Positions 47,440 to 64,000 of a stretch of DNA of 64,000 nucleotides are shown here, one piece after another. This stretch comes from a virus, in IMG/VR virus record IMGVR_UViG_3300033146_004128, positions 1-64,000 of that record; one strand, written 5' to 3'. Within the stretch, counting starts at the first letter, position 1. The number at the start of each line of letters is the position of its first letter. The notes under the pieces are model-generated. The model searched no databases. It was not told the DNA's origin and saw only the letters and a program-made list of their open reading frames with translations. A program made the translations under genes and the position numbers.

Positions 47440-48048
47440 ATGTACAACAAAGTAGTATTGTTAGGAAACTTAACAAAAGATATTGAACTAAGATATACGC
47501 AGAGCGGATCGGCAATAGGAAACACGGGGATTGCGACAAATAGAAAATGGAAGTCACAAACAGGAGAGCAAAAGGAAGAGGTTATGTTCGTTGACATCAC
47601 ATTCTTTGGACGATCTGCAGAGATTGCGAACCAGTACCTTAGAAAAGGCAGCAAGATCCTTGTTGATGGTAGGCTGAAGCTTGACCAGTGGAAGGCACAA
47701 GACGGATCTAACCGGTCCAAGCACAGCATTGTTGTTGAGACCATGAAGATGCTGGATCCGAACCCAAACAACGGAGGAAATGGACAGGGAGGATACCACA
47801 ACAACCAGAATAACCAGAACCAAGGTAATGGTGGATACGGTAATGGAAACGGCAACGGTAATGGGTACGGAAACAATGGTCAGGGCAATGGTCAGGGCAA
47901 TGGTCAGGGTGGATATCAGAACAACGGCAATAATGGCCAAGGAGGATACCAGAATAATGGCAACAATGGGAATGGGAACAATGGTGGAGGAGCGCAACCT
48001 GATCAAATCCCGGAGATTGACATCAACGAAGACGAGATCCCGTTTTAG
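47440..48048 (+). CDS. ssb: Single-stranded DNA-binding protein
   Basis: Coats single-stranded DNA at forks and recruits partners through its C-terminal tip. 202 residues. OB fold in residues 1-108: NKVVLLGNLTKDIELRYTQS, EEVMFVDITFFGRSAEIANQYL, KILVDGRLKLDQW. Then a Gly/Asn/Gln-rich disordered linker, then the acidic tip INEDEIPF, close to the bacterial consensus DDDIPF. It resembles Campylobacterota SSBs in wording as I recall them, suggesting acquisition from the host lineage. ATG follows AGGAG. Confidence 0.96.
   Translation: MYNKVVLLGNLTKDIELRYTQSGSAIGNTGIATNRKWKSQTGEQKEEVMFVDITFFGRSAEIANQYLRKGSKILVDGRLKLDQWKAQDGSNRSKHSIVVETMKMLDPNPNNGGNGQGGYHNNQNNQNQGNGGYGNGNGNGNGYGNNGQGNGQGNGQGGYQNNGNNGQGGYQNNGNNGNGNNGGGAQPDQIPEIDINEDEIPF
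47878..47910 (+). repeat. Tandem 12-bp repeats in the SSB linker
   Basis: GGTCAGGGCAAT is repeated in tandem at 47878-47901, with a third partial copy to 47910, coding Gly-Gln-Gly-Asn. A longer imperfect unit (GYQNNGNNGQG) follows. The array can change copy number by slippage without breaking the frame. Confidence 0.8.
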
Positions 48049-48132: not shown

Positions 48133-48681
48133 ATGAACTATGAAAGTAAAAGCAAGTATGTAGAATTTGTAATTGAAGACAGTGATTATATAAACGACAT
48201 AATGGAAGAGTGGGGGATTATTACAGGTAGAGGAACTGTGTCATATTATGATAATGACAACATGGCCGTGCCTGAGTATGATCACTCATTTGTTTTAGAA
48301 TGGGAAAATAGCGTTGGGGAAAAGAGAATCCTTGTTGGAGATGAGCATGATGCTATATTCGATGAGATATTTGACTGTGTAAATATATATGACTTCCTTC
48401 TTGCAGATGACGGTGAGCAGATAGACATTAGTGACTATGCTAGCCTGTCAATAGAGGAGATGCTAGGAGTAAGAGATAGAACTGAACCGGTTGGACTATC
48501 CTCGGAACAGTTCAATGAGCTTATGTCTAGGCTCATAGAACTGAAAGAGGACTCCTTGTACAGAAGGGAGATCAATGGAGACACTGAAGTGTATCCTAGG
48601 GTCAATGGAATGATACCTTATCTAGAGGCGAAAGAGATCATTCTCAAATATGTAATAGACAAAGGAAATGTAAAAAAATGA
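48133..48681 (+). CDS. Hypothetical acidic protein
   Basis: 182 residues (AAAAAGGA upstream), acidic, strands then helices. ATGA overlap with the next gene. Unrecognised. Confidence 0.76.
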   Translation: MNYESKSKYVEFVIEDSDYINDIMEEWGIITGRGTVSYYDNDNMAVPEYDHSFVLEWENSVGEKRILVGDEHDAIFDEIFDCVNIYDFLLADDGEQIDISDYASLSIEEMLGVRDRTEPVGLSSEQFNELMSRLIELKEDSLYRREINGDTEVYPRVNGMIPYLEAKEIILKYVIDKGNVKK

Positions 48682-49511
48682 AGACAAGAAAAGGAAAAGG
48701 TTATAATACCTGGGGCTTGACAATGGCATCAAAGGGAGAGGACAACAATCCATACATTCTACTTTGGCTAGGTAAGACAGCATACGAGTATGGATTCAAT
48801 GATTTTTTCATGAAGCCGTATAGGTATGTTTGGCACTACGGAGATACATCACATCTCATGATAGCAAAGAAAGAGATAAGCTTTACAATACACACCGGGA
48901 AGGAAGACGGATTTGTTAGCTGTAGGTATGGTGCAGACAAAGATTTTCTTATGGGAAAAAATGCGAATCACCTGCCTGCATGGCACAAGATGTGCAGTCT
49001 TCCATGGATGCATAATGAGTTTGACGGGCAATGGCTTCTAAATATAGATGGTACAGAGTTCTTAAAGATAAAAGATGGGACTATAGATCTAGATGCTTCA
49101 CCATGGGACTATCCAGGGCACGAAAGGGTTGACTTTGAGTTTGTTGATTCTCATGATAGTGAGATAATCATAGGTACAGCAAGAATGGAAAGACGTGTAT
49201 GGACAAGAGGAACGAGTTGGTGTAGCTGGATGAAGTACTTTTTTGATCCTATAGTACACACAGATATGGCCATTGACTTCAATAAGGAGGTCGGTCCAGA
49301 AAAAGGATCATGGAAGGGAGGAATAGTTGGTATGAGCATCAACCTTAATGATGGTGAGAATGGGCTCGATGCGTGTAAAAGGTTCTGCTTTGAGAAAGGG
49401 TACACCTTCCATGGATTCCTACATCACGGAAAGAATAACGAAATTGTATACAAGAATAAGATAACAAAAGTAGATGACTTTGAAGCAGAAGGGCAGGGAG
49501 CAGTCATATGA
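48678..49511 (+). CDS. Hypothetical Trp-rich protein
   Basis: 277 residues, unusually rich in Trp, Tyr, Phe and His, beta-leaning, near-neutral charge. No motif recognised. ATGA overlap with the AcrVA2-like gene. Confidence 0.76.
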   Translation: MKTRKGKGYNTWGLTMASKGEDNNPYILLWLGKTAYEYGFNDFFMKPYRYVWHYGDTSHLMIAKKEISFTIHTGKEDGFVSCRYGADKDFLMGKNANHLPAWHKMCSLPWMHNEFDGQWLLNIDGTEFLKIKDGTIDLDASPWDYPGHERVDFEFVDSHDSEIIIGTARMERRVWTRGTSWCSWMKYFFDPIVHTDMAIDFNKEVGPEKGSWKGGIVGMSINLNDGENGLDACKRFCFEKGYTFHGFLHHGKNNEIVYKNKITKVDDFEAEGQGAVI

Positions 49512-50425
49512 GGCACCCAATATATGACGAGGAACTTCCTGAGGTTATGAGAAAAGCAGCCGTGCTTACTTTTGAAGGAAAGCATGACCAGGCACAAAGA
49601 ATGTTGAAGCATGTGATTGACAAATTCGGAGAGGATAGGGGTGAAGAACATGAAATTATTAAACAAAATTCAGAATACTCTCTCACGATGATGATGATGC
49701 AGGCTAGGCTATCAGCTCTAGTTATGATCACAGGATTTGTGTGGATTGATGCTACACGTGATGAGTGGTTCTCACCATTATCTATGAAGGTTATAAGCTC
49801 AATAACACTTGACAATTTTAAGATGCCTTTCAATACAGGAGTAATATCTATTTCAAAGAGGGATTATCTATTTCATAAGGATGAAGAGGGTCTGCTGATA
49901 GTCCTGCTCCAAGACAAGTATCTATCCGGCCTAGCCAAAGAGAATGCACACTTCGATGAGATAATTGATCTTCTTGCAGAAGACCAGTCATTTCCACATG
50001 CTATCTTTAACGATGGAAGTAAAACCATAGGTGAGTTGGTAGACGATGGTGGGCTGTACACTAGCGAGAATTCAGAGGGGCAGAAGCAAGAGTTTTATGC
50101 TGTTATGTCTGCACTAATGTATGTAGCTATGTCAAACTCATCAGTAGAAGAGTTCAAGGATACCGTAAAAAGGAAGAAGGTTCTAGCCAAGAAGAGAAAG
50201 AGCTATCCTAGACACGTTACAAATGTAATAAATGTGAGACAGAGAGTTAGAGTTAGAGATGGTAAAAGCGTAAGCAATGGATCTAAGTCTGAAAAGATGT
50301 GGATAGTTCGTGGGCACTGGAGAAATCAGTATTACTCGAAGACTGACGAGCATAAGCATAAATGGATAGACCCATACTTTAAGGGAGAAGGCAAGGTTGC
50401 AGCAGAAAAAGTATATAGAATATAA
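49508..50425 (+). CDS. AcrVA2-like protein
   Basis: 305 residues (AcrVA2 is about 320). The C-terminal block is diagnostic: a basic stretch, then W-I-V-R-G-H-W-R at 265-272, then Q-Y-Y, then KWIDPYFKGEG. AcrVA2 and its phage relatives end with a similar RRGHWH or VRGHWR block. Before it, AIFNDGSKTIGELVDDGGLY and a hydrophobic helix (YAVMSALMYVAMS) match the order of AcrVA2's FxLxxGQxVxEVLD segment and Leu-rich helix. AcrVA2 lowers Cas12a production during translation. Relatives are widespread, often in hosts without Cas12a, so the target here is unknown. Resemblance is from memory. Confidence 0.5.
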   Translation: MRHPIYDEELPEVMRKAAVLTFEGKHDQAQRMLKHVIDKFGEDRGEEHEIIKQNSEYSLTMMMMQARLSALVMITGFVWIDATRDEWFSPLSMKVISSITLDNFKMPFNTGVISISKRDYLFHKDEEGLLIVLLQDKYLSGLAKENAHFDEIIDLLAEDQSFPHAIFNDGSKTIGELVDDGGLYTSENSEGQKQEFYAVMSALMYVAMSNSSVEEFKDTVKRKKVLAKKRKSYPRHVTNVINVRQRVRVRDGKSVSNGSKSEKMWIVRGHWRNQYYSKTDEHKHKWIDPYFKGEGKVAAEKVYRI

Positions 50426-51198: not shown

Positions 51199-51375
51199 AT
51201 GGCAACAGCAAAAGATATAGAAGAGGTGATTGGGGTTTCAAAAAGAACCATCGAGCTATGGGCAACTAAAGACAACGGTCAGCAAAACAAGGAGTCTAGG
51301 AAAAAGCTGGCACTATTTTTAAAAGGCTTTTCAAGAGAAGAACTGGAAAGGCATATGAAAAAATGTGGTGCATAG
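51199..51375 (+). CDS. Small HTH DNA-binding protein
   Basis: 58 residues. TAKDIEEVIGVSKRTIELWA is a clear helix-turn-helix: first helix, the G-V-S turn, recognition helix with R-T-I-E-L-W. Little follows it except a charged helix. It resembles small excisionase-like or Cro-like regulators. It is preceded by GGGTAGTA and overlaps the next frame. Confidence 0.65.
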   Translation: MATAKDIEEVIGVSKRTIELWATKDNGQQNKESRKKLALFLKGFSREELERHMKKCGA

Positions 51376-55459: not shown

Positions 55460-56242
55460 ATGGGGTATAGAATAGAGTTCAGAGGTGACATAACATACTC
55501 TGGTAGCGATGAAGACATGAAGATTGTTGCAGACATTATGGATGGCCTTTCAGCTACAAGAAGAGTCAAGAGAGACATGAGTAAGCATACCGGAGAGCTA
55601 AGCCTACCTATGGAAGACTACGGGATAGAAGGAGAGTTCTATTTTGGTAGAGACGACAGCAGTGTAGTAGATAGCAACAGCCCTCCAAGTTCACAACCGT
55701 CTCTGTATTGTGGATGGGAGTATGATACGCCAGGAGTTCTTGTATGGAATTATGATGAGCAAGCAAGCTCTCCGGACGGATGGATCAGATATATTGTGGA
55801 GAAGATCATATCTGCTAACAACTGTGTATGTAATTGCGAGATAGAGTATAGAGGTGATGACTGGGACGACTATGGTACAATCGTAGTCAAGAACAATGTT
55901 GTAGATCTGTATGAGATGAATTGTATTGCACCAGTGTCTGATGCAAATATTGTCGATGCAAAAATACGATACTATAATCCATCACAATTTGACAATGTTA
56001 ATACTGTCAGCGATTGGTCTGATATGAGTTCAGATGACATGGCGAATAATTATTGGCTATTGTTCTACGATACGCTAAATGATATTGTTGCCGATGGTGT
56101 AACAGAAGTAGTTAATCAGCATGATTTAGATATAATCACAGACCTTGTGTCCGAGGTTATAGGCAATGAGAATGATAAGGATGGTACTCCAGTGTACCCG
56201 GATATGTTCATATTTAGTTTTAATGTGGCAGTAGATAAATAA
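55460..56242 (+). CDS. Hypothetical protein, DUF6205-like start
   Basis: 260 residues. MGYRIEFRGDITY and CEIEYRGDDWDDYGTIVVKNN follow a pattern of phage proteins that I associate with DUF6205, but I am not sure. Beta-rich first two thirds, helical end. No function known. Confidence 0.7.
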   Translation: MGYRIEFRGDITYSGSDEDMKIVADIMDGLSATRRVKRDMSKHTGELSLPMEDYGIEGEFYFGRDDSSVVDSNSPPSSQPSLYCGWEYDTPGVLVWNYDEQASSPDGWIRYIVEKIISANNCVCNCEIEYRGDDWDDYGTIVVKNNVVDLYEMNCIAPVSDANIVDAKIRYYNPSQFDNVNTVSDWSDMSSDDMANNYWLLFYDTLNDIVADGVTEVVNQHDLDIITDLVSEVIGNENDKDGTPVYPDMFIFSFNVAVDK

Positions 56243-56263
56243 AAATAAAAAAAGGTGGTCAAA

Positions 56264-57343
56264 ATGAATAAAATGTCAGCGGTAGGAATGCTAGTTAGTG
56301 GTGAGTGTGATTCTATTTTACATGGAAGCTCAGAGTTTATTCTTCAGGGTGAAGATGTCGTCAATAAAAGAAGTAAGAAAGCACTTGATATGAAGAAGAT
56401 GCTTGAAGAGGGATGGGACACAAAGATGCTCCCAAGATGGGACGATGCAATGCAAGATGGTGCTGAACGGCCTACACTTTGTGTACTTGAGAATGATGGA
56501 TCGCTCATCATTATACTTAGCAAGACAGAAGATGGAGAATATATCACTTCGTACGGAGAGATCTATGATAGAGATACTTATGGTCAACTTAGACCTGCGA
56601 CAAGAGATGAAGCGTTAGCACTTCTTGCTGATGTGAAAGATGCTGCTCCATCAAAGCCTAAGCCTAAAACAAAGCCGAAGAGTGAGCCGAAGATAAAAGA
56701 GGAAGTACCAAGAGAAGAAGAGCCGGCAGTTATCACTGGGGAGACAGACATTAGCGAAACAGGCGAGACTTTTGCAGAGATGCCACAAGAGGAACTTATT
56801 GATCTTTGTGGTGTTCCAGAGGAAGAGAATCCTTTTGTTGAAGATCAAGAATATGATGATAGTTGCATTACAGGAGCCACAGAGGGTAGTGATGTCCCAA
56901 AGCCTCAAGAGGAATGTCAGCCTCAGAGATCGACGAATACTACAAAGCCAAAGGACGGGGGTGAGCCAACGCTCAAGGATCAGTATGTATCTCTGGGTCT
57001 AGATAAAGATCTATGGCCTGACTTCTGTAGCTATTGTTTCACGAACGATGTTGACAATGTGGCACTGATGGAGCGAGGAATGAAATATGCATCGTCATGT
57101 GTTATCGATTTTATGGCAGATAGATCAAAGGGTTCTAGACGTGACAGCACAAAACATGAGTCCGATGACACTATCATTGATAAGCTTGAGGTGCTAGTTG
57201 ACTTTGGTCTTGAGAGCAATGACGCTATTGACTTCTATGAGTATCACAAGCTAGATAAGTTCAGGTTGGCTACACTTATCAGTGATGCTACGGATGGAAG
57301 ACTTACAGAGCTGGTTACGCAATTTTATGATGAAAGGAAATAA
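56264..57343 (+). CDS. Hypothetical protein with Pro/Lys/Glu linker
   Basis: 359 residues from ATG 56264, six bases after AAAGGTG. An N-terminal domain (~1-125) is joined to a helical C-terminal domain (~235-359) by a repetitive, disordered linker (PKPKTKPKSEPKIKEE and acidic stretches). Two small domains on a tether suit a scaffold or binding protein; no known family. Confidence 0.77.
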   Translation: MNKMSAVGMLVSGECDSILHGSSEFILQGEDVVNKRSKKALDMKKMLEEGWDTKMLPRWDDAMQDGAERPTLCVLENDGSLIIILSKTEDGEYITSYGEIYDRDTYGQLRPATRDEALALLADVKDAAPSKPKPKTKPKSEPKIKEEVPREEEPAVITGETDISETGETFAEMPQEELIDLCGVPEEENPFVEDQEYDDSCITGATEGSDVPKPQEECQPQRSTNTTKPKDGGEPTLKDQYVSLGLDKDLWPDFCSYCFTNDVDNVALMERGMKYASSCVIDFMADRSKGSRRDSTKHESDDTIIDKLEVLVDFGLESNDAIDFYEYHKLDKFRLATLISDATDGRLTELVTQFYDERK

Positions 57344-57344
57344 G

Positions 57345-57653
57345 ATGGAAGATACAGATAGATTAGTAATATGGTGGGGTCCGGACTTGGACAAGGAAGA
57401 TGTTTTTGTTATGCCTGTTGCAACAGTAGAAGAGGGGGTTAAGACCCTTGGACTTCTTACTGCATACGATGAGTTCCTTACGAACCAAAAGTTCAAGGAA
57501 GAGGCTGTTAGTAATGGAGCCCTTGCATTTCTAACAGAGAAGGGTGAACTTAATCAGTGGTCATACACAAGTATAGCTGATGGAGGAGTAAAATATGATG
57601 ATCCAATGGAGTATCTAAAAGCTAAATATACGAAGACAGAGATTATAACATGA
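57345..57653 (+). CDS. Conserved-looking small phage protein
   Basis: 102 residues from ATG 57345 (AAGGA upstream). VEEGVKTLGLLTAYDEFLTN, then SNGALAFLTEKGELNQW, matches a pattern of small tailed-phage proteins (a helix ending LxxYdxF, then NaggLxxfxxxGExxxW). No function known to me. Confidence 0.74.
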   Translation: MEDTDRLVIWWGPDLDKEDVFVMPVATVEEGVKTLGLLTAYDEFLTNQKFKEEAVSNGALAFLTEKGELNQWSYTSIADGGVKYDDPMEYLKAKYTKTEIIT

Positions 57654-57862
57654 CCAAAGTAACAATGAGCGTATATGCAATGGCTGTAGAGTTTGATGAT
57701 GGTGAGATGATGAACCCACGACCAGTGTTCCTTAGACCTGAGCATGCTGAAGAGTTTGCTAAACTTATGGAAAAATCTCCAAATGTTAAGTCATGCGACT
57801 CATGGCTAGCTACAATATCGGTAGATGAAGAGGATGTTCCCAAGTACACAAGAGCTACGTAA
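57650..57862 (+). CDS. Hypothetical small protein, last of the plus array
   Basis: 70 residues, ATGA overlap with the upstream gene. Strand, loop, helix (RPEHAEEFAKLMEK), then strand. It ends just before the terminator hairpin. Confidence 0.73.
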   Translation: MTKVTMSVYAMAVEFDDGEMMNPRPVFLRPEHAEEFAKLMEKSPNVKSCDSWLATISVDEEDVPKYTRAT

Positions 57863-57868
57863 TAATTC

Positions 57869-57907
57869 CCCACTCGAAAGAGTGGGCGCAGTAGTCTGAT
57901 TTTTTTT
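57869..57907. terminator. Terminator region between convergent clusters
   Basis: CCCACTC (57869-57875) and GAGTGGG (57880-57886) form a perfect 7-bp stem with a GAAA tetraloop. A run of eight T follows at 57900-57907. A second weaker stem brackets the T-run. The site lies exactly between the end of the long plus array and the end of the minus cluster. Confidence 0.7.
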
Positions 57908-57916
57908 AGATTACGT

Positions 57917-58903
57917 TTATATCTGGATTGAAGTTTTTTGAACGCCGGTAACTTTTCTATATATGTGCTCAGCGAGCATCTCTGCCTGCTCTTGCGTTAT
58001 GAACGCATCTTCTCCGTTGTAGTATGATGAAGCCCCAGAAGATTCATAGAACGTATCTACTTTTTCAATTAGTTCGGCGTCAGTAAATAGTGAAGCCAGA
58101 TGTATCTCTACCTCATCACCATTCTTCTTTATGTCAAGCTCACTAAATTTATTCATAGTAAATATATTCGTATCTTTCTCTACTTCTTCTGGCACAACAG
58201 CATTGTCAGAGATGAGCCCATCTTCACGAACAGAGTTTGATAGTATAGACTCTCTACTTTCAAGAGCTGATGCAAAAGATATAACAGGTGACGATATTCC
58301 ACCGTTCATCCTGACATTGTCAAGCCTTAAAGAAGAAGAGTCTCTCTCCTTGCTTATGGATCCTGACTGCAGAGAGATAGATACATCCCAATCTGCAGAG
58401 TCTATACCTATTGTCTCTCCATTCTTGTAGAACTCCTGATCATATATTCTTATTGGGAATACAGTATTATCGTCATCATTGCTGTAGTCAAATGAAAGAC
58501 CAGGGTCGTAAGAAAGTGTTGGCGATTCAATGCTTCCATCTTTCATGATAGATATCTCAGAGAGAATCTCTTTTGTCATTATGGACGTGTCTTTTATCTG
58601 GTCTATAGGCATCATGATTACTGACCCAGGTATCCCATCGGAAGCCTTATAGAAGAATGTTGTCATGTCTGATTCATTATATGCGAAGAAGTCACTAGCA
58701 TTATACCCTTTGAGAACTATAGTAGGTGCCTCTATGCTTGTAGTTGCTGCAACAGCCATTCTTACTGATCCATAATAGTCATAAGATCTAAGGAAGTCAA
58801 ATGCCAAGTCAGCTCCAGTGTTAGCTGTGTTCACAAGTGTCTGTGAATACTTAAGTGCAGATATGAAACTATTCATATCCTCTATCGTTAATTGTGTGCT
58901 CAT
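57917..58903 (-). CDS. Hypothetical protein, possibly virion-associated
   Basis: 328 residues. Ser/Thr/Asp-rich, beta-leaning in the middle, helical C terminus. Unlike the plus-strand array proteins in composition and length. TAGGAG precedes the start. It is last in a minus-strand cluster; a structural or assembly role is a guess. Confidence 0.75.
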   Translation of the reverse strand: MSTQLTIEDMNSFISALKYSQTLVNTANTGADLAFDFLRSYDYYGSVRMAVAATTSIEAPTIVLKGYNASDFFAYNESDMTTFFYKASDGIPGSVIMMPIDQIKDTSIMTKEILSEISIMKDGSIESPTLSYDPGLSFDYSNDDDNTVFPIRIYDQEFYKNGETIGIDSADWDVSISLQSGSISKERDSSSLRLDNVRMNGGISSPVISFASALESRESILSNSVREDGLISDNAVVPEEVEKDTNIFTMNKFSELDIKKNGDEVEIHLASLFTDAELIEKVDTFYESSGASSYYNGEDAFITQEQAEMLAEHIYRKVTGVQKTSIQI

Positions 58904-58915
58904 GTTAAACTCCTA

Positions 58916-59788
58916 TTATACATATAGACCAGGCTCACCGAATGTCTTATGTACATCATTCTTGAATTCTGATACTCTCTTTTTTCTCTTATCTATAAAT
59001 CTATCTATACCATAGTATGTACCTGCAGCAGTAATTCCAAGTCCAACTATTCTATTCTTCGCCTTCGAGCTTTCTCTAGCTTCAGATATCTTCTTGCCCG
59101 TCTTCTTGACACTCTTTACTATTTTAGCAACTGATGCTTTTTTCTCTAGCATGTCTTTCTTCTTTCGTGTCTGCATTATATATTGAGCAGGCTCTATGGC
59201 ACTAAGTCCAAGCATGCCTGCAGCGAGAAGACCTGATCCAAATCTCTTTGTCTTGAATAGATTTCCGATATTGCTAAACTCTCTACCTGTAGCAGTAAGA
59301 ACCTTCTTGGGTGATAGTATGTTCTTAACCATCTGCTTTGTTCCTATCTTCCCAGACTGTTTCATTTGATGCATTGTATTAAGAAATGCACCGGTTCCTA
59401 TTGTTCCAGACGCCACAGCAGGAGCAGCTATTGATGCGAAGTGACCAGCATTAAACTTCTTGTCGTTTCCATACTTATCACTTGCCTTTCCAACAAGATG
59501 CTCAGCCGGTAAAGTTACTGCTGTCCCTGCAGCGGCACCAAGAGCAGTATTTCTGAGCATCCTGCCACCTGACGCTAGCATACCTATTCCTTTTGCTCTG
59601 CCTTTCCATACTGGTATTGCATTGAATAAGGCTGTAGCACCTGCTGACCATCCAGCTGCTTCAAGTAAGCTTGGGGATTCTTGTTTCTTCTTTTGCTTCT
59701 GTAGGACGTCAGGAACTCTTCTAACTGCTTCTTCTGGTAGACTCTCAAGGACTTGTTGTCCTCCGGGCTTATTCGATATATTTGCCAT
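58916..59788 (-). CDS. Basic Ala/Gly-rich protein with hydrophobic segments
   Basis: 290 residues, strongly basic with several hydrophobic Ala/Gly stretches (GAAAGTAVTLP, GLLAAGMLGLSAI, GLGITAAGTYYGI). Composition suits an internal virion or membrane-contacting phage protein. AGAGG precedes the start. It has its own extended -10 promoter inside the end of the upstream gene. Confidence 0.75.
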   Translation of the reverse strand: MANISNKPGGQQVLESLPEEAVRRVPDVLQKQKKKQESPSLLEAAGWSAGATALFNAIPVWKGRAKGIGMLASGGRMLRNTALGAAAGTAVTLPAEHLVGKASDKYGNDKKFNAGHFASIAAPAVASGTIGTGAFLNTMHQMKQSGKIGTKQMVKNILSPKKVLTATGREFSNIGNLFKTKRFGSGLLAAGMLGLSAIEPAQYIMQTRKKKDMLEKKASVAKIVKSVKKTGKKISEARESSKAKNRIVGLGITAAGTYYGIDRFIDKRKKRVSEFKNDVHKTFGEPGLYV

Positions 59789-59796
59789 GAATACCT

Positions 59797-60405
59797 CTAG
59801 TAATTTATTTTATCTATGATTATACCATATCTTTTAAGACAAGACGAGGGGTCTTGTCTGCACTCTGGGTCAGTGCTTATCTTCCAGTGTAGGAATTCTG
59901 ATATAAATATGAACCCTCTATCACTTGCATCCTTGTCAATACTTGACCATTCTCTATGGAACTTTGATCCCTCAACTATGGGATTTTTTATGTGATGCCA
60001 TAGTGTTAATGCACCTGCAATGTTTGATGACTTCACAAAGCCAAGTCCTTCCATACCTACGATTCTCTTAAGCTCATTGGCACACCATTGCTTCTGTGCT
60101 AATCCTAGGAACATCTGCTTTCCAACAAGTCTTCTGTCCATACTCAGAACAAAGTCTCTATCATCCTTTCGGATAGACCCTATTCTCAATATGCGCTCAA
60201 GCCTATCAATGTCACCCATGTCAAACCCATTATCTCTAAGCCATATCTTAGACATAATGTCTGACGTACTCCATCCTGCAGGTCCAAAAATTACATCAGC
60301 TCCACCCTTCTTCTCTATCCTGAATGAGAATGGATGTGGATCTGACTTCCTAATGCATGTCAATGCTGCCATCGATGTTGTATATACATTTTGTATGGAG
60401 AACAA
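59797..60405 (-). CDS. Hypothetical protein, TTG start
   Basis: 202 residues. TTG at the right end follows AGGGA by six bases; the first in-frame ATG is 11 codons in and has no site. Mixed fold with Trp-rich segments (FGPAGWSTSD, QKQWCANELKR, LTLWHHI). No motif recognised. It lies 25 bases downstream of the GroES-like gene. Confidence 0.72.
   Translation of the reverse strand: MFSIQNVYTTSMAALTCIRKSDPHPFSFRIEKKGGADVIFGPAGWSTSDIMSKIWLRDNGFDMGDIDRLERILRIGSIRKDDRDFVLSMDRRLVGKQMFLGLAQKQWCANELKRIVGMEGLGFVKSSNIAGALTLWHHIKNPIVEGSKFHREWSSIDKDASDRGFIFISEFLHWKISTDPECRQDPSSCLKRYGIIIDKINY
59819..59827 (-). promoter_or_regulatory. Extended -10 promoter
   Basis: TGG-TATAAT on the minus strand, about 30 bases upstream of the basic protein start and inside the 3' end of the preceding gene. 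No -35 match. Confidence 0.7.
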
Positions 60406-60430
60406 TTTTCGTCCCTGTTGAATTAAATAG

Positions 60431-60715
60431 TTATTTTTGGCACGGGAATGTGCCTAGTATGTTTTGACCAAGAACGACATCGAATGTACAACCATTGTCT
60501 TTGACGTCTTCTTCTATTGCCATATTGTATAGTACGATATCTCCTACTGATACAGGTATGCTTGGGCTATCGCCTACTGCGATTACCTCTCCTCTTGCTG
60601 GATATTTCTCTGTTCTTACTGTCTCTACTATGATTCCAGTTGAACTCATTTGTGGCTCAGGGATATGCTGTACAGCGACGATGTCCGGTCCGGGTATGAA
60701 GTTTATAGTACTCAT
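60431..60715 (-). CDS. groES: GroES-like co-chaperonin
   Basis: 94 residues, the usual length. PGPDIVAVQHIPEP, then SSTGIIVETV, ARGEVIAVGDS, VSVGDIVLYNMA and a final VVLGQNILGTF follow the Cpn10 order: core strand, mobile loop, G-x-V-x-A-V-G turn, V-G-D-x-V-x-Y strand, D-I-L-A end. It would cap host GroEL during folding of phage proteins, as T4 gp31 does for the capsid. No GroEL is encoded here. Confidence 0.88.
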   Translation of the reverse strand: MSTINFIPGPDIVAVQHIPEPQMSSTGIIVETVRTEKYPARGEVIAVGDSPSIPVSVGDIVLYNMAIEEDVKDNGCTFDVVLGQNILGTFPCQK

Positions 60716-60744
60716 TTGGTATTCCTCTCTTTAGTGTGATGTGT

Positions 60745-60753
60745 AGTATACCA
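60745..60753 (-). promoter_or_regulatory. Extended -10 promoter of the groES-like gene
   Basis: TGG-TATACT on the minus strand (5 of 6 in the hexamer), about 30 bases upstream of the start; an A/G-rich ribosome site (AGAGAGGAAT) lies between. Confidence 0.7.
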
Positions 60754-60774
60754 TATTGTAACATTAGATAAAGC

Positions 60775-60963
60775 TTATTGACTATCTATAGGACTTACAA
60801 TGTCAAGAATAATTAAGACTACCGCACTCACAAGAACGATTGGCCATGCAATAGCGAGAGCCATAGCATTGACAGTAGGCATCTTTCTTCCGGACAGTAC
60901 AAGAATTACTAGAGTGACAAGCGATAAGCTTATAGAAAATCCCCAGAACTCACACCATGCCAT
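60775..60963 (-). CDS. Small membrane protein, two predicted TM helices
   Basis: 62 residues with hydrophobic stretches at about 8-24 and 35-55 and a short basic loop (SGRKMPTVN). Preceded by TTAGGAG. Could be a holin-like or other membrane peptide; no motif supports a specific role. Confidence 0.74.
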   Translation of the reverse strand: MAWCEFWGFSISLSLVTLVILVLSGRKMPTVNAMALAIAWPIVLVSAVVLIILDIVSPIDSQ

Positions 60964-60983
60964 AATATCTCCTAATTTTTAGA

Positions 60984-60992
60984 ATTATACCA
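60984..60992 (-). promoter_or_regulatory. Extended -10 promoter, minus strand
   Basis: TGG-TATAAT on the minus strand, 21 bases from the start of the small membrane protein. It lies back to back with the plus-strand promoter at 61022, their boxes about 30 bases apart. Confidence 0.72.
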
Positions 60993-61021
60993 TATTAAAT
61001 ATGATAAGGAAATATTTAATT

Positions 61022-61030
61022 TGGTATAAT
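61022..61030 (+). promoter_or_regulatory. Extended -10 promoter, plus strand
   Basis: TGG-TATAAT in AT-rich DNA, 25 bases before ATG 61055. No -35 match. Divergent with the promoter at 60984-60992, so a single bound factor could affect both. Confidence 0.72.
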
Positions 61031-61054
61031 ATTATCAATCAATCAAGGAATCAT

Positions 61055-61324
61055 ATGTATAAATTCATCGCATGCTTCGTAGCAATAGATAAAGATAGTA
61101 AGATAAAATATGTGTCTCATGAACTTACAGGAGCGAGATACCCTAAGAATAATACAGAAGACATAGTTGGCATGTGTAGAGCTATACAGTCATTCTCTAA
61201 CCTTGACTTAGAGTATGTTGATGTCTTCCATCTTATAGATCCTGCAGGAAGAACAATATGGGAAGAGGGCACCCTTGAAGGAGAGAGAGATGATCTAAGT
61301 ATAGTGCCAGTAGACTACTCTTGA
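61055..61324 (+). CDS. Hypothetical protein
   Basis: 89 residues from ATG 61055 (AAGGA upstream and the extended -10 box properly placed; the longer in-frame ATG would start upstream of the promoter). Alpha/beta with a helix EDIVGMCRAIQSF. Unrecognised. Confidence 0.76.
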   Translation: MYKFIACFVAIDKDSKIKYVSHELTGARYPKNNTEDIVGMCRAIQSFSNLDLEYVDVFHLIDPAGRTIWEEGTLEGERDDLSIVPVDYS

Positions 61325-61519
61325 CTATTGTGTGCTAAATGAGGTATTATTACAGTGCGTGAAAACACGCCACCTTCACAGGTGTGAGCACTAGCTCAAC
61401 ATGCACGGCAATCTTTCCCCTCAAAGTTTTGTCTTAGCATTTCTATCCTTTCATAGCTACACGTTGTATGCCTAGCCGGTGAGGTGGTCCGGACCTTGCC
61501 TGCCAGGTTACGTGTAGCT
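61321..61519 (+). ncRNA. Possible structured RNA with own promoter
   Basis: TTGACT (61321-61326) and TATTAT (61345-61350) are spaced by 18 bases. The 183 bases without a gene that follow hold GCGTG/CACGC around AAAA, and at the end a strong 10-bp stem, AGCTACACGT (61455-61464) with ACGTGTAGCT (61510-61519), enclosing an inner hairpin. It runs antisense into the last codons of the HsdS-like gene. Could be a regulatory RNA; the evidence is structure and a promoter-like sequence only. Confidence 0.35.
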
Positions 61520-62146
61520 CCTAGACAATGACTCAAGTTCACTCACAAGATCATCTAACTTTACAAGATTCTCTTCTATCTCCCTATCAATATCAACAGC
61601 CCTCTTAACTATGTCTATGTCAAGTATAGAGTCAGGCACTTTGATCTCACCAAGAAACTTCTTATCAATGGCATGCAGCCTCTTTCTCTTTCCCAGCTCT
61701 TTCGCTACCTCTCGTACAACTGTATCACTCTGCAACCACAGAGATAGACTCACAGCTATATTGAACGTAGGACATCGCAGGTATAACATATGTCTTCCGG
61801 CAATAGTAGGTATGTCATCAAAGGGTATAAACCTATAAGCTCCAATATACTTATCAAGTCTTGGTATCACAATACAGTTCTCATCAAGAGCATGTATGTT
61901 CATAATAGCAGTAGAGTATTTCTCGTTAGGTATTTCAAGAGTACTTCTGAAGCTCTCATTGGGTCTACGATTGTCTTCAAGCACACGCACTTTTCCTATC
62001 TTAAACTCACCTCTTCTTTGTGCGAATTTCCTCTGTACATTGTGTACTGTTATACCATGCTCTGCCATGAACAATTCGAGGTCAATAAGCTCTATGCCTC
62101 TCTGGTAAAACTCTCTTCTTATATCACTGTACGGTATGTTACTCAT
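61508..62146 (-). CDS. HsdS-half-like protein, probable DNA-binding regulator
   Basis: 212 residues; the start at the sixth in-frame codon is chosen because AAAGGA lies six bases before it. Residues ~85-212 read like one half of a type I restriction specificity subunit: ENCIVIPRLDKYIGAYRFIPF, TIAGRHMLYLRCPT, a W-L-Q-S-D segment, KRLHAIDKKFLGEIKVPDSI, then a coiled-coil helix with DIDREIEENLVKLDDLVSEL. A full HsdS has two such halves. No HsdM or HsdR is near. The N-terminal ~85 residues are a separate basic region. Two palindromic sites flank its promoter, so autoregulation is likely. Family assignment is by pattern. Confidence 0.6.
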   Translation of the reverse strand: MSNIPYSDIRREFYQRGIELIDLELFMAEHGITVHNVQRKFAQRRGEFKIGKVRVLEDNRRPNESFRSTLEIPNEKYSTAIMNIHALDENCIVIPRLDKYIGAYRFIPFDDIPTIAGRHMLYLRCPTFNIAVSLSLWLQSDTVVREVAKELGKRKRLHAIDKKFLGEIKVPDSILDIDIVKRAVDIDREIEENLVKLDDLVSELESLSRSYT

Positions 62147-62163
62147 ATCATGTCCTTTCATAA

Positions 62164-62221
62164 AATACCAGCCTAGGTATTTACAAAAGTATTATATCAT
62201 AAAAATACCAGGCTAGGTATC
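62164..62221 (-). promoter_or_regulatory. Promoter flanked by two bipartite palindromes
   Basis: On the minus strand TGA-TATAAT (62191-62199) is the extended -10 box. Site 1 at 62164-62181 is AATACC-N6-GGTATT, over the early transcript. Site 2 at 62204-62221 is AATACC-N6-GGTATC, where a -35 box would lie. Both spacers read AGSCTA and the centres are 40 bases apart. This is a classic operator layout for a symmetric dimer. Confidence 0.7.
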
Positions 62222-62401
62222 ACGTCGTAGGTATATAAAAAAGTGCTCGTACACCCCTAGTCACAACACAATACTTAACCACAGTCCCATATAAGAGAAG
62301 AGACCCAAGTAATAACATAGAGAACATAGAAGAGAGATAAGAGATATTAGTAACGGAGTAGATTCGTTCTTCGGACTGATGCTGAATGAAACGTTTGCTT
62401 A

Positions 62402-62460
62402 GTCTGTGTGCTTTGGGATGAGGTGGGGAGGAAGTCTGCCTCATCCAAAAACACATAGAC
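62402..62460. ncRNA. Long hairpin, 22-bp imperfect stem
   Basis: The 22 bases 62402-62423 pair with 62439-62460 (one G-U, two mismatches), with a 15-base purine-rich loop. The inner eight pairs, GGATGAGG with CCTCATCC, are perfect. No T-tract follows on either strand. Likely a structured RNA or processing signal. Confidence 0.5.
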
Positions 62461-62663
62461 GACTGCCCTCACGTGAGTGGGCGTTCACGTGCCACCAGGA
62501 TGGTAGCATAGGCTTGCCGATGGATCAAATGAAACCTTTGTGGGCTCTCACCGTCCGTAGTGGTATTATAGCGTGATAGTTCTTAGTCTGCAATAGTTCT
62601 ATTTTGGAATGTACGAGAGGAGGGGCTCAGCGTTAACCGAGCCCATATGAAGTAAAAATGTCA

Positions 62664-62694
62664 ATCAGGTCATAGGGTACTAGTCGGACCTGAT
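62664..62694 (+). repeat. Stem-loop with ACTAGTCGGA, copy 1
   Basis: ATCAGGTC (62664-62671) pairs perfectly with GACCTGAT (62687-62694). The loop holds CATAGGG and ACTAGTCGGA. A purine-rich AAAAAAGGA follows. Copy 2 is at 62835-62876. Confidence 0.55.
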
Positions 62695-62714
62695 GTCTTA
62701 AAAAAGGATGAAAA

Positions 62715-62766
62715 GTGATTAACATCACGTTTGCGAAGAGCTTTTTACTCTTGCATCAGCATTATA
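62715..62766 (-). ncRNA. Possible short minus-strand RNA
   Basis: A minus-strand TATAAT (62761-62766) is followed by AAGAG/CTCTT around an A-rich loop, and then GTGAT/ATCAC (62724-62728 with 62715-62719) directly followed by four T on that strand, the form of a minimal intrinsic terminator. The product would be about 45 bases. The promoter lacks the TGN extension. Confidence 0.3.
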
Positions 62767-62805
62767 TACGAGTAAACCTTAAAGTATTATGAGCGGTGTG
62801 ATTTT

Positions 62806-62823
62806 TGAGTATGCCTATCGTAG
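62806..62823 (+). repeat. 18-bp direct repeat, copy 1
   Basis: TGAGTATGCCTATCGTAG, identical to 62937-62954, 131 bases apart. One copy lies on each side of the second ACTAGTCGGA stem-loop. Confidence 0.8.
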
Positions 62824-62834
62824 GGATAAAAATG

Positions 62835-62876
62835 GCATGTTGCCCCATAGTGGAATACACTAGTCGGAGCACATGC
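62835..62876 (+). repeat. Stem-loop with ACTAGTCGGA, copy 2
   Basis: GCATGT (62835-62840) pairs with ACATGC (62871-62876) around a loop with CATAGTGG and ACTAGTCGGA, in the same order as copy 1, although the stems differ in sequence. That compensation suggests a conserved RNA or DNA structure. AAAAGGAGG follows at 62881-62889 without a good start codon. Confidence 0.5.
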
Positions 62877-62936
62877 TTGTAAAAGGAGGTAGGATCTTTC
62901 TTGCGATAGCAGTACAGCATATCTTTCTGGCTATCA

Positions 62937-62954
62937 TGAGTATGCCTATCGTAG
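62937..62954 (+). repeat. 18-bp direct repeat, copy 2
   Basis: Identical to 62806-62823. Confidence 0.8.
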
Positions 62955-63029
62955 TGAATGATACTATCAGTACGAAAGAGAATATAGCAATACTAGAGGA
63001 TAGTATCACTGTGTACATAGAGTCTTTTA

Positions 63030-63257
63030 TCATATCTTCTTCTTCCTTACGCCTTTGGTTCCCATTCTTGGAGCACGGTACGGTCTCTTAACAGACTTCA
63101 TGTAGCGAACGCTCTTTGCTTGAGGTTTTCTCTGGTACTCGGAGTAGCTCATCGCCTCCTTGTCCGCATCTATGTTGTTTTCTGGGGATACCTCTTCAGG
63201 TGTCCTTCCTGATAGTTTCTTGCCAGCAACATTTTTCTTCTTGCTACACTTTTTCAT
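63030..63257 (-). CDS. Small very basic protein
   Basis: 75 residues with Lys/Arg-rich ends (MKKCSKKKNVAGKKLSGR; KGVRKKKI) and a polar middle. It is probably disordered and nucleic-acid-binding, perhaps packaged with DNA. AAAGGA and a TGT-TATAAT promoter precede it. Confidence 0.75.
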   Translation of the reverse strand: MKKCSKKKNVAGKKLSGRTPEEVSPENNIDADKEAMSYSEYQRKPQAKSVRYMKSVKRPYRAPRMGTKGVRKKKI

Positions 63258-63284
63258 CTCTATCCTTTTGTATAATATTTACGT

Positions 63285-63293
63285 ATTATAACA
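63285..63293 (-). promoter_or_regulatory. Extended -10 promoter, minus strand
   Basis: TGT-TATAAT on the minus strand, 28 bases before the basic protein. It is divergent with the promoter at 63324-63332. Confidence 0.7.
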
Positions 63294-63323
63294 AAGAAGA
63301 ATCTAAAAAGCTACAGTTTCATA

Positions 63324-63332
63324 TGGTATACT
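63324..63332 (+). promoter_or_regulatory. Extended -10 promoter, plus strand
   Basis: TGG-TATACT followed by AGAGGAGTGGAA and ATG 63363. No -35 match. Confidence 0.7.
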
Positions 63333-63362
63333 TCTTGGAAGCGTATATATAGAGGAGTGGAA

Positions 63363-64000
63363 ATGAATAAAGATCCAAGAACGTTGAAAGATCTAGTAGA
63401 CAATGCAAATGAGGGCTACTCAATGTCTGTGTTTGGTGAGACAAAGTTCTCTGAAGATGACATCTATAGAGTAAAAGCTGGTGGGTTCAAAAAGACGAAA
63501 GAGAATGTGTATAAGTGGTGGGCGAACGGAAGTTGGATTCTTGCCAGCAAGGCAATGAAAAGAATATCTGAACTGTTCATTATAGATGGCGCTGGGTTTA
63601 AAGCTGTAACAGGCGAGACTCTCACGGCTGAGATAGCGAGACGGAGTAGGATACCGCAACCTTCTGCAGTAGCATCGGCTAGATACAATAGTACAAAGTG
63701 GACCAAGGGTGTAGCAGCAGAGTTTCGTAACGAAGTCAAAGTGTACAAGCAAGTGAGCAAGAAGAATCATGCACAGGTATTGTACGAGAAGTTATCTAAT
63801 ATGATAGAGGATACATACCAAGCACCTATGATAGTGCCTGAGTTCACAACTGGTACAATCTCATCAATATGTGATCTCATAGCAGTCAATGATAAAGACA
63901 TAGAAGCATTTGAGATAAAGAGTAAGGCAGACACACTTAAGAGACTAAGGAAGCAAGTGTCTGACTATAAGATATATGCAGATAAAGTGTGGGTTGTAAT
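63363..64000 (+). CDS. PD-(D/E)XK nuclease-like protein (sce7726 type), 5' part
   Basis: The gene runs off the right edge; 212 residues are visible. The last ~60 show the sce7726 pattern: a core Asp in ICDLIAVN, then the E-x-K strand FEIKSKADTL, then KRLRKQVSDYKIYADKVWVV. This is the nuclease-fold core of a family of unknown function in phages and bacteria. The first ~150 residues are basic and Trp-rich and may bind DNA. Confidence 0.72.
   Translation, partial: MNKDPRTLKDLVDNANEGYSMSVFGETKFSEDDIYRVKAGGFKKTKENVYKWWANGSWILASKAMKRISELFIIDGAGFKAVTGETLTAEIARRSRIPQPSAVASARYNSTKWTKGVAAEFRNEVKVYKQVSKKNHAQVLYEKLSNMIEDTYQAPMIVPEFTTGTISSICDLIAVNDKDIEAFEIKSKADTLKRLRKQVSDYKIYADKVWVV

Follow-up and report, generated by a model that had tools for sequence, protein, structure and literature searches.

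A divergent phage protein with the predicted AcrVA2 fold, encoded beside an Acb3-like gene: a candidate silencer of a host gene

AcrVA2 reportedly recognises Cas12a by its nascent N-terminus and causes decay of the Cas12a mRNA through unknown machinery, and it has been described as the first prokaryotic gene silencing through a nascent peptide (both in the review PMC13131331). The window analysed here comprises the first 64,000 nucleotides of an uncultured virus record (IMGVR_UViG_3300033146_004128; 187,664 bases, GC about 0.40). It carries an ORF that the initial annotation had likened to AcrVA2, with Cas12a or another nascent host protein as the proposed target. Two questions are therefore raised by this locus: whether the encoded protein is related to AcrVA2, and, if so, what it acts on.

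The ORF was real and lay as annotated (49508..50425, + strand), encoding a protein of 305 aa with an ATG start, designated P0001. In the predicted structure, an N-terminal helical part (residues 1-78, 49508..49741, + strand) contained helices at residues 12-22, 26-43, 45-53 and 55-75. The central alpha/beta part (residues 79-211, 49742..50140, + strand), delimited by profile alignment and predicted structure, included NFKMPF (103-108), G170-SKTIGELVD179 and a helix at 189-211, and was assigned as the counterpart of the AcrVA2 MID domain by alignment and the domain borders given in PMC10846135. The late W-x-VRGHWR block was present as written, W265-I-V-R-G-H-W-R272 (50300..50323, + strand). It belonged to a conserved C-terminal hairpin (residues 263-295, 50294..50392, + strand; KMWIVRGHWRNQYY...HKWIDPYFKG) that was recognised from the model and the alignments and was common to AcrVA2 and all relatives of P0001. 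The TI-ELVD segment was also found (G-S-K-T-I-G-E-L-V-D, residues 170-179, 50015..50044, + strand), with a spacing of G-x-x-T-I-x-E-L-V-D, one residue longer than the G-x-T-I-x-E-L-V-D first noted. The length and block order matched AcrVA2 (305 aa compared with the 323-aa chain in 7ci1). The codon-level pattern GHWR-x13-WI.P occurred once in the window, compared with 0.00 expected from shuffled windows. This expectation, together with a full-length relative in a syntenic contig (47.6% identity), confirmed at the level of sequence that the blocks of P0001 were above chance.

Direct searches with P0001 returned little. There was no match to Pfam over the cut-off (the best, NTase_sub_bind, was far below at 0.086), none to NCBIfam, and nothing at 0.01 by tblastn against 50,697 phage records. 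In addition, phmmer against PDB sequences gave chance matches alone and did not reach AcrVA2, and a scan of viral contigs from P0001 alone gave 8 pattern stretches and 0 relatives. A search of BFVD with the P0001 model gave 3 matches at E <= 0.001, each to an uncharacterised protein from a phage. Against the PHROGs, P0001 matched phrog_15934 (E 1.2e-12, residues 193-293) and phrog_10678 (E 4.8e-7), both of unknown function and found on phages and actinobacterial plasmids. The C-terminal RGHWR...WI.P block of phrog_15934 was present in P0001. By these profile matches, the family of P0001 is phrog_15934, which occurs on phages and plasmids, mainly actinobacterial ones.

The DNA pattern GHWR-x13-WI.P was found in 89 stretches of IMG/VR viral contigs, 88 of them with an open frame, giving 83 distinct ORFs. 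The nearest relative, at 47.6% identity over the full length, was L067, on the same contig as the L104 stretch, which was syntenic with the window (SSB 90%, Acb3-like gene 47%, a downstream 75-aa gene 68%). A thioredoxin gene in that stretch (L104:6483-6806; PF00085, 6e-26) had no counterpart in the window comparison. Other viral relatives, on contigs of 32-206 kb, were 29-33% identical to P0001. Relatives were also found at 29 loci in cellular genomes, 27 of them in actinobacteria as judged from the organism name; the other two were in Sulfurimonas indica and in an Acidobacteria MAG. The Sulfurimonas indica locus, adjoined by a recombinase-like ORF, was the best cellular relative. The actinobacterial-type member L022 matched 10 phage and 85 plasmid records, and genes of this type were annotated as hypothetical proteins in all 6 records whose surroundings were inspected. 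P0001 and four viral relatives stood apart as a group: they had NFKMPF-like and KPKWIDPYxKG blocks and lacked the GPxxxPL tail. Separately, seven proteins (L040, L050, L025, L075, L092, L078 and L083) had the C-terminal block in common with AcrVA2 as well as with phrog_15934. They ended in H-V-R-R-G-H-W-R...K-W-I-N-P or similar, and their front was different and longer (369-438 aa in 5/7).

Five alignments were used for the comparison with AcrVA2. A2 represented the AcrVA2 family and held 12 phage proteins, namely ORF43 of Shewanella phage vB_SbaS_Y11 and 11 homologues, taken from 13 records of 49 matching (L005 was left out). Y11 ORF43 matched PDB 7ci1 at E 1.5e-72, and 7ci1 was the sole PDB match of the A2 profile. 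A3 held P0001 and 4 viral relatives (5 rows). A4 held P0001 and 35 hand-picked members of the 88 motif-bearing ORFs (36 members, all 36 matching phrog_15934); truncated, duplicate and over-long ORFs and the HVRRGHWR group were for the most part left out. A5 comprised 41 ORFs of the actinobacterial type, without any of the five rows of the P0001 group, and A6 comprised 7 ORFs of the HVRRGHWR bridging group. Because the rows of A3 to A6 were found by the pattern GHWR-x13-WI.P, the invariance at those letters in them is by construction, and A2 was the sole alignment of the five free of motif selection.

The profile of the P0001 group was similar to that of AcrVA2. In hhalign, A3 aligned with A2 over 186 columns (Prob 94.4, score 60.3, E 9.1e-8 for this single comparison), and the alignment was collinear over residues 103-295 of P0001. 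The reversed profile and 60 column-shuffled profiles used as controls reached a maximum score of 22.7, compared with 60.3. When the C-terminal block was cut from both profiles, the score was 36.3, and 80 shuffles gave at most 20.9. Since the score survived this truncation, the likeness of A3 to A2 was not due to the RGHW motif alone, and common descent with AcrVA2 was detectable beyond the C-terminal motif. The similarity of A4 to A2 was moderate (Prob 48). That of A5 to A2 was weak and not significant by sequence (Prob 2.9, score 24.6), and A5 aligned with A3 over 105 columns of the C-terminal third (Prob 99.3). A6 scored 55.0 to A2 and 66.5 to A4 via its C-terminal part. In hmmsearch against PDB sequences, A3 and A4 did not reach AcrVA2, and A6 had AcrVA2 as its top chain at E 0.98. 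BLASTP of P0001 against Y11 ORF43 gave E 0.055.

The predicted structures were in agreement with this result. The AlphaFold2 model of P0001 built on A4 was of fair quality (pLDDT 71.7, pTM 0.66). Foldseek of this model against the PDB gave nothing at E <= 0.001, and AcrVA2 was not among the best 50 rows. With VIA-align, the best PDB match was 7ci2_A, AcrVA2 with a Cas12a peptide (Z 9.0, rmsd 5.3, 232 aligned), covering model residues 1-294 on chain residues 2-316, nearly the whole length, at about 5% identity and with a very divergent pocket-bearing part. The next rows were unrelated helical proteins with Z <= 6.8, mostly over 50-70 residues of the N-terminal helices. Because models that have no clear match commonly reach a best Z of 7 to 8 in VIA-align, a second, independent model was built, that of the actinobacterial-type relative L070 on A5. 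This model was good (pLDDT 87.7, pTM 0.86), and AcrVA2 was its sole PDB match: Foldseek gave 7ci2_A at E 2.3e-4 and 7ci1_A at 7.2e-4 (prob 1.00; next unrelated target E 0.79), and VIA-align gave Z 10.5 and 10.2 (next 2.5). Given the A5-A3 match over the C-terminal third, the fold of L070 plausibly carries over to P0001. Both models showed the overall AcrVA2 fold, a helical NTD, an alpha/beta MID and a CTD hairpin. The structural comparison called for in the initial annotation thus found a fold that was not unrelated to AcrVA2, and the proposed relatedness was borne out by the profile-profile alignments, which were controlled by shuffling and by truncation, and by two models with AcrVA2 as best PDB match. 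Accordingly, P0001 very probably has the AcrVA2 fold and shares common descent with AcrVA2.

This relationship is a distant one. PHROG 6160, the AcrVA2 family proper, had no match in the whole phage record at E <= 1, the Y11 control giving 1.4e-60, and it was absent from the PHROG matches of P0001 at E <= 1. The possibility that the phage carries two AcrVA2-like genes was considered and rejected, as the record gave one match, and none to PHROG 6160. The AcrVA2 invariants H325, R327, W335 and G337 (Y11 numbering) corresponded to W, V, Y and S in P0001, with R-G-H-W kept, and the near-invariant PH-x-RR-(G/A)-H-W-H-x-x-W-x-G of the family proper was not found. Judged by the missing PHROG 6160 match and the loss of several invariants, P0001 is outside the AcrVA2 family in the narrow sense.

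The hairpin was the most conserved region in the three alignments measured. The mean pairwise identity in A2, whose rows were not chosen by motif, was 0.47 in the hairpin compared with 0.16-0.21 elsewhere. The corresponding values were 0.72 compared with 0.23-0.27 in A3, and 0.66 compared with 0.16-0.31 in A5; in these two alignments the values are biased, since the motif had been used to choose most rows. Aromatic and basic residues dominated the hairpin. A constant hairpin with a variable front is the pattern that would be expected if the hairpin were a common effector and the rest a target selector.

The gene order at the locus was an SSB gene (PF00436, 47440-48048), a gene for an unknown protein of 182 aa, an Acb3-like gene (48678..49511, + strand) and the gene of P0001. 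In the SSB gene, tandem repeats at 47833-47984 encoded a long tail of Gly/Asn/Gln repeats. The Acb3-like protein matched the Pfam profile of the CBASS inhibitor (PF25187) at E 1.4e-25, with 91 bits compared with a curated cut-off of 27, its residues 81-242 covering positions 95-244 of the 245 in the profile. The stop of this gene and the start of the P0001 gene overlapped by 4 nt (ATGA). The same pair, with the same 4-base overlap, was found in a second uncultured phage (L104:2677-4427), where the two proteins were 47% and 48% identical to those in the window. The overlap with the Acb3-like gene hints at counter-defence, but the pairing was seen in only 2/6 related virus records, and other relatives had unrelated neighbours. 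By tblastn, the Acb3-like protein had distant matches in 12 phage records (Sulfitobacter, Synechococcus, Thalassomonas, Vibrio and Pseudomonas). The literature search found no paper joining Acb3 and CBASS, and the portion consulted of the Acb4 preprint PMC11722364 gave no description of Acb3.

Other arrangements were considered and rejected. There was no conserved partner gene, since among 102 distinct genes (window copy included) clustering of the ORFs directly upstream gave at most 4 loci per cluster. An acr-aca arrangement via a 58-aa ORF (51199-51375) was also rejected, as its matches to terminase-small-subunit-like HTH proteins were below threshold (E 0.0028). Further downstream, the GC skew, previously about 0.30, dropped to 0.02 in the final 8 kb block (56000-64000), and the large ORFs turned to the minus strand from 57917. 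The skew drop and the strand switch likely mark a transcription or replication boundary.

A mode of action can be proposed by analogy with AcrVA2. In this model, the front of P0001 (its N-terminal and central part), which is variable, would read a short peptide of one host protein at the ribosome exit. The near-constant hairpin (W-I-V-R-G-H-W-R ... W-I-D-P) would link this reading to the ribosome or to an RNase, and the mRNA under translation would then be destroyed. The target would probably be a host protein other than Cas12a, plausibly one of a defence system because the gene overlaps the Acb3-like anti-CBASS gene. The shared fold by itself shows no function. On balance, a role in counter-defence or host takeover is somewhat favoured. 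That P0001 is a nascent-peptide-guided silencer of some host gene, with both mechanism and target inferred, has a little less than an even chance, and nascent-peptide-guided mRNA decay as its mode of action is slightly more tentative still. If P0001 does act by mRNA decay, its target is highly likely to be something other than Cas12a.

The main alternative is that P0001 is an RNA- or ribosome-binding regulator of phage or plasmid genes or of replication, with no host defence target, and that AcrVA2 arose from this fold by later recruitment. The surroundings of the relatives, on phages as well as on plasmids (85 plasmid records), are mixed: a DNA primase adjoins the relative in phage Yara, SSB is nearby in the window, L104 and L105, and HTH regulators are near other relatives. 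The lack of a conserved partner among the 102 genes is also in line with such a role. However, AcrVA2, the sole member with known activity, is an anti-defence protein according to PMC13131331, and the overlap with the Acb3-like gene also speaks against a regulator, which we consider possible yet rather unlikely. It is less probable again, and on the whole improbable, that P0001 inhibits a host protein in its mature form by binding to it, sterically or as a dimer, without mRNA decay and with a merely structural hairpin. In the crystal structure 7ci2, AcrVA2 is indeed bound to a second Cas12a peptide, which is internal and lies at a distance from the N-terminus (reviewed in PMC13131331). However, the hairpin was the most conserved part in the three alignments measured, beyond what a mere scaffold would lead one to expect, and its aromatic and basic composition argues in the same direction.

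The possibility that P0001 is a genuine inhibitor of Cas12a in the host of the phage, part of the initial proposal, was also evaluated. None of the 26 genomes bearing relatives had a Cas12a match, in a search in which no control rang. In a second set of 397 genomes, Cas12a was over the family cut-off in 4, and none of the 6 relative-bearing genomes in the set was positive (genome G001 was counted among both the 26 and the 6). Since the hosts of the relatives mostly show no Cas12a, other proteins are probably the targets. The AcrVA2 fold and the occurrence of Cas12a in the class of one relative's genome (the 4 of 397) favour a Cas12a inhibitor, whereas the 0/26 and 0/6 counts, the divergence of the pocket-bearing part and the unmatched PHROG 6160 make it very improbable. 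Action on Cas12a was thus unsupported, and another nascent host protein, the second target initially suggested, is the better bet. As to the host, the best of the listed matches of the phage DnaG primase were mainly Helicobacter prophages (<= 37.5%), which, with the Sulfurimonas indica relative, hints at Campylobacterota. Finally, a chance resemblance to AcrVA2, for which the failed single-sequence searches and the negative Foldseek result with the P0001 model could be cited, is hardly credible in view of the shuffle and truncation controls and the L070 model with AcrVA2 as its sole PDB match.

Silencing through a nascent peptide, the reading preferred here, would have implications beyond this phage. 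A previous structure search with AcrVA2 gave 342 matches, of which the 273 with descriptions were all uncharacterised (PMC12230656). AcrVA2-like proteins have been noted in huge phages (PMC7162821) and homologues in two phyla (PMC6739104). No paper linking phrog_15934-type proteins to AcrVA2 was found in the literature search. What is new here is a named sequence family, a motif, a distribution and a phage context for AcrVA2-like structures. P0001 is a divergent branch that widens a known and mechanistically striking fold, not a new kind. If the broad family on phages and actinobacterial plasmids shares the AcrVA2 fold and C-terminal block, bacteria in general may be subject to this mechanism. 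A bolder and more doubtful suggestion places AcrVA2, as one specialised branch, within a large unnamed superfamily of programmable nascent-peptide readers on phages and plasmids. A constant hairpin would destroy the mRNA and a fast-changing front would pick the victim, in actinobacteria, Campylobacterota and other hosts, silencing many host genes, chiefly of defence, at translation. If the fold and block are shared, comparison of the branches would point to killing residues (the R-G-H-W hairpin) as opposed to target-choosing residues. An isolated AcrVA2 oddity thereby becomes testable with dozens of natural variants, which are candidates for programmable gene silencing; portability of AcrVA2 by tagging has been described in a conference report (PMC12908700).

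Compared with AcrVA2 from Moraxella (7ci1, 7ci2; PHROG 6160), P0001 was of the same length class (305 and 323 aa) and had the same predicted fold over its whole length. The order of blocks was also the same, with a P-x-W/F strand, a TIxE segment, an LxYV/LLWLC helix and an RGHW hairpin ending in W. It differed in having WIVRGHWR..YYS in place of HxRRGHWH..W.G, and W-I-D-P and K-G after the hairpin motif. Y11 ORF43 and its relatives in jumbo Erwinia and Dickeya phages are likewise phage-borne proteins of the AcrVA2 family, but they mostly retain PHIRR(G/A)HWH..W.G, which P0001 does not. TTC5, which acts in tubulin autoregulation, belongs to a eukaryotic, host-encoded system for which no homology to P0001 is claimed, and such autoregulation has been likened to anti-CRISPR proteins in PMC10403363. 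It is a functional analogue of the action proposed here, in that a nascent N-terminal peptide is read on the ribosome and decay of that same mRNA follows.
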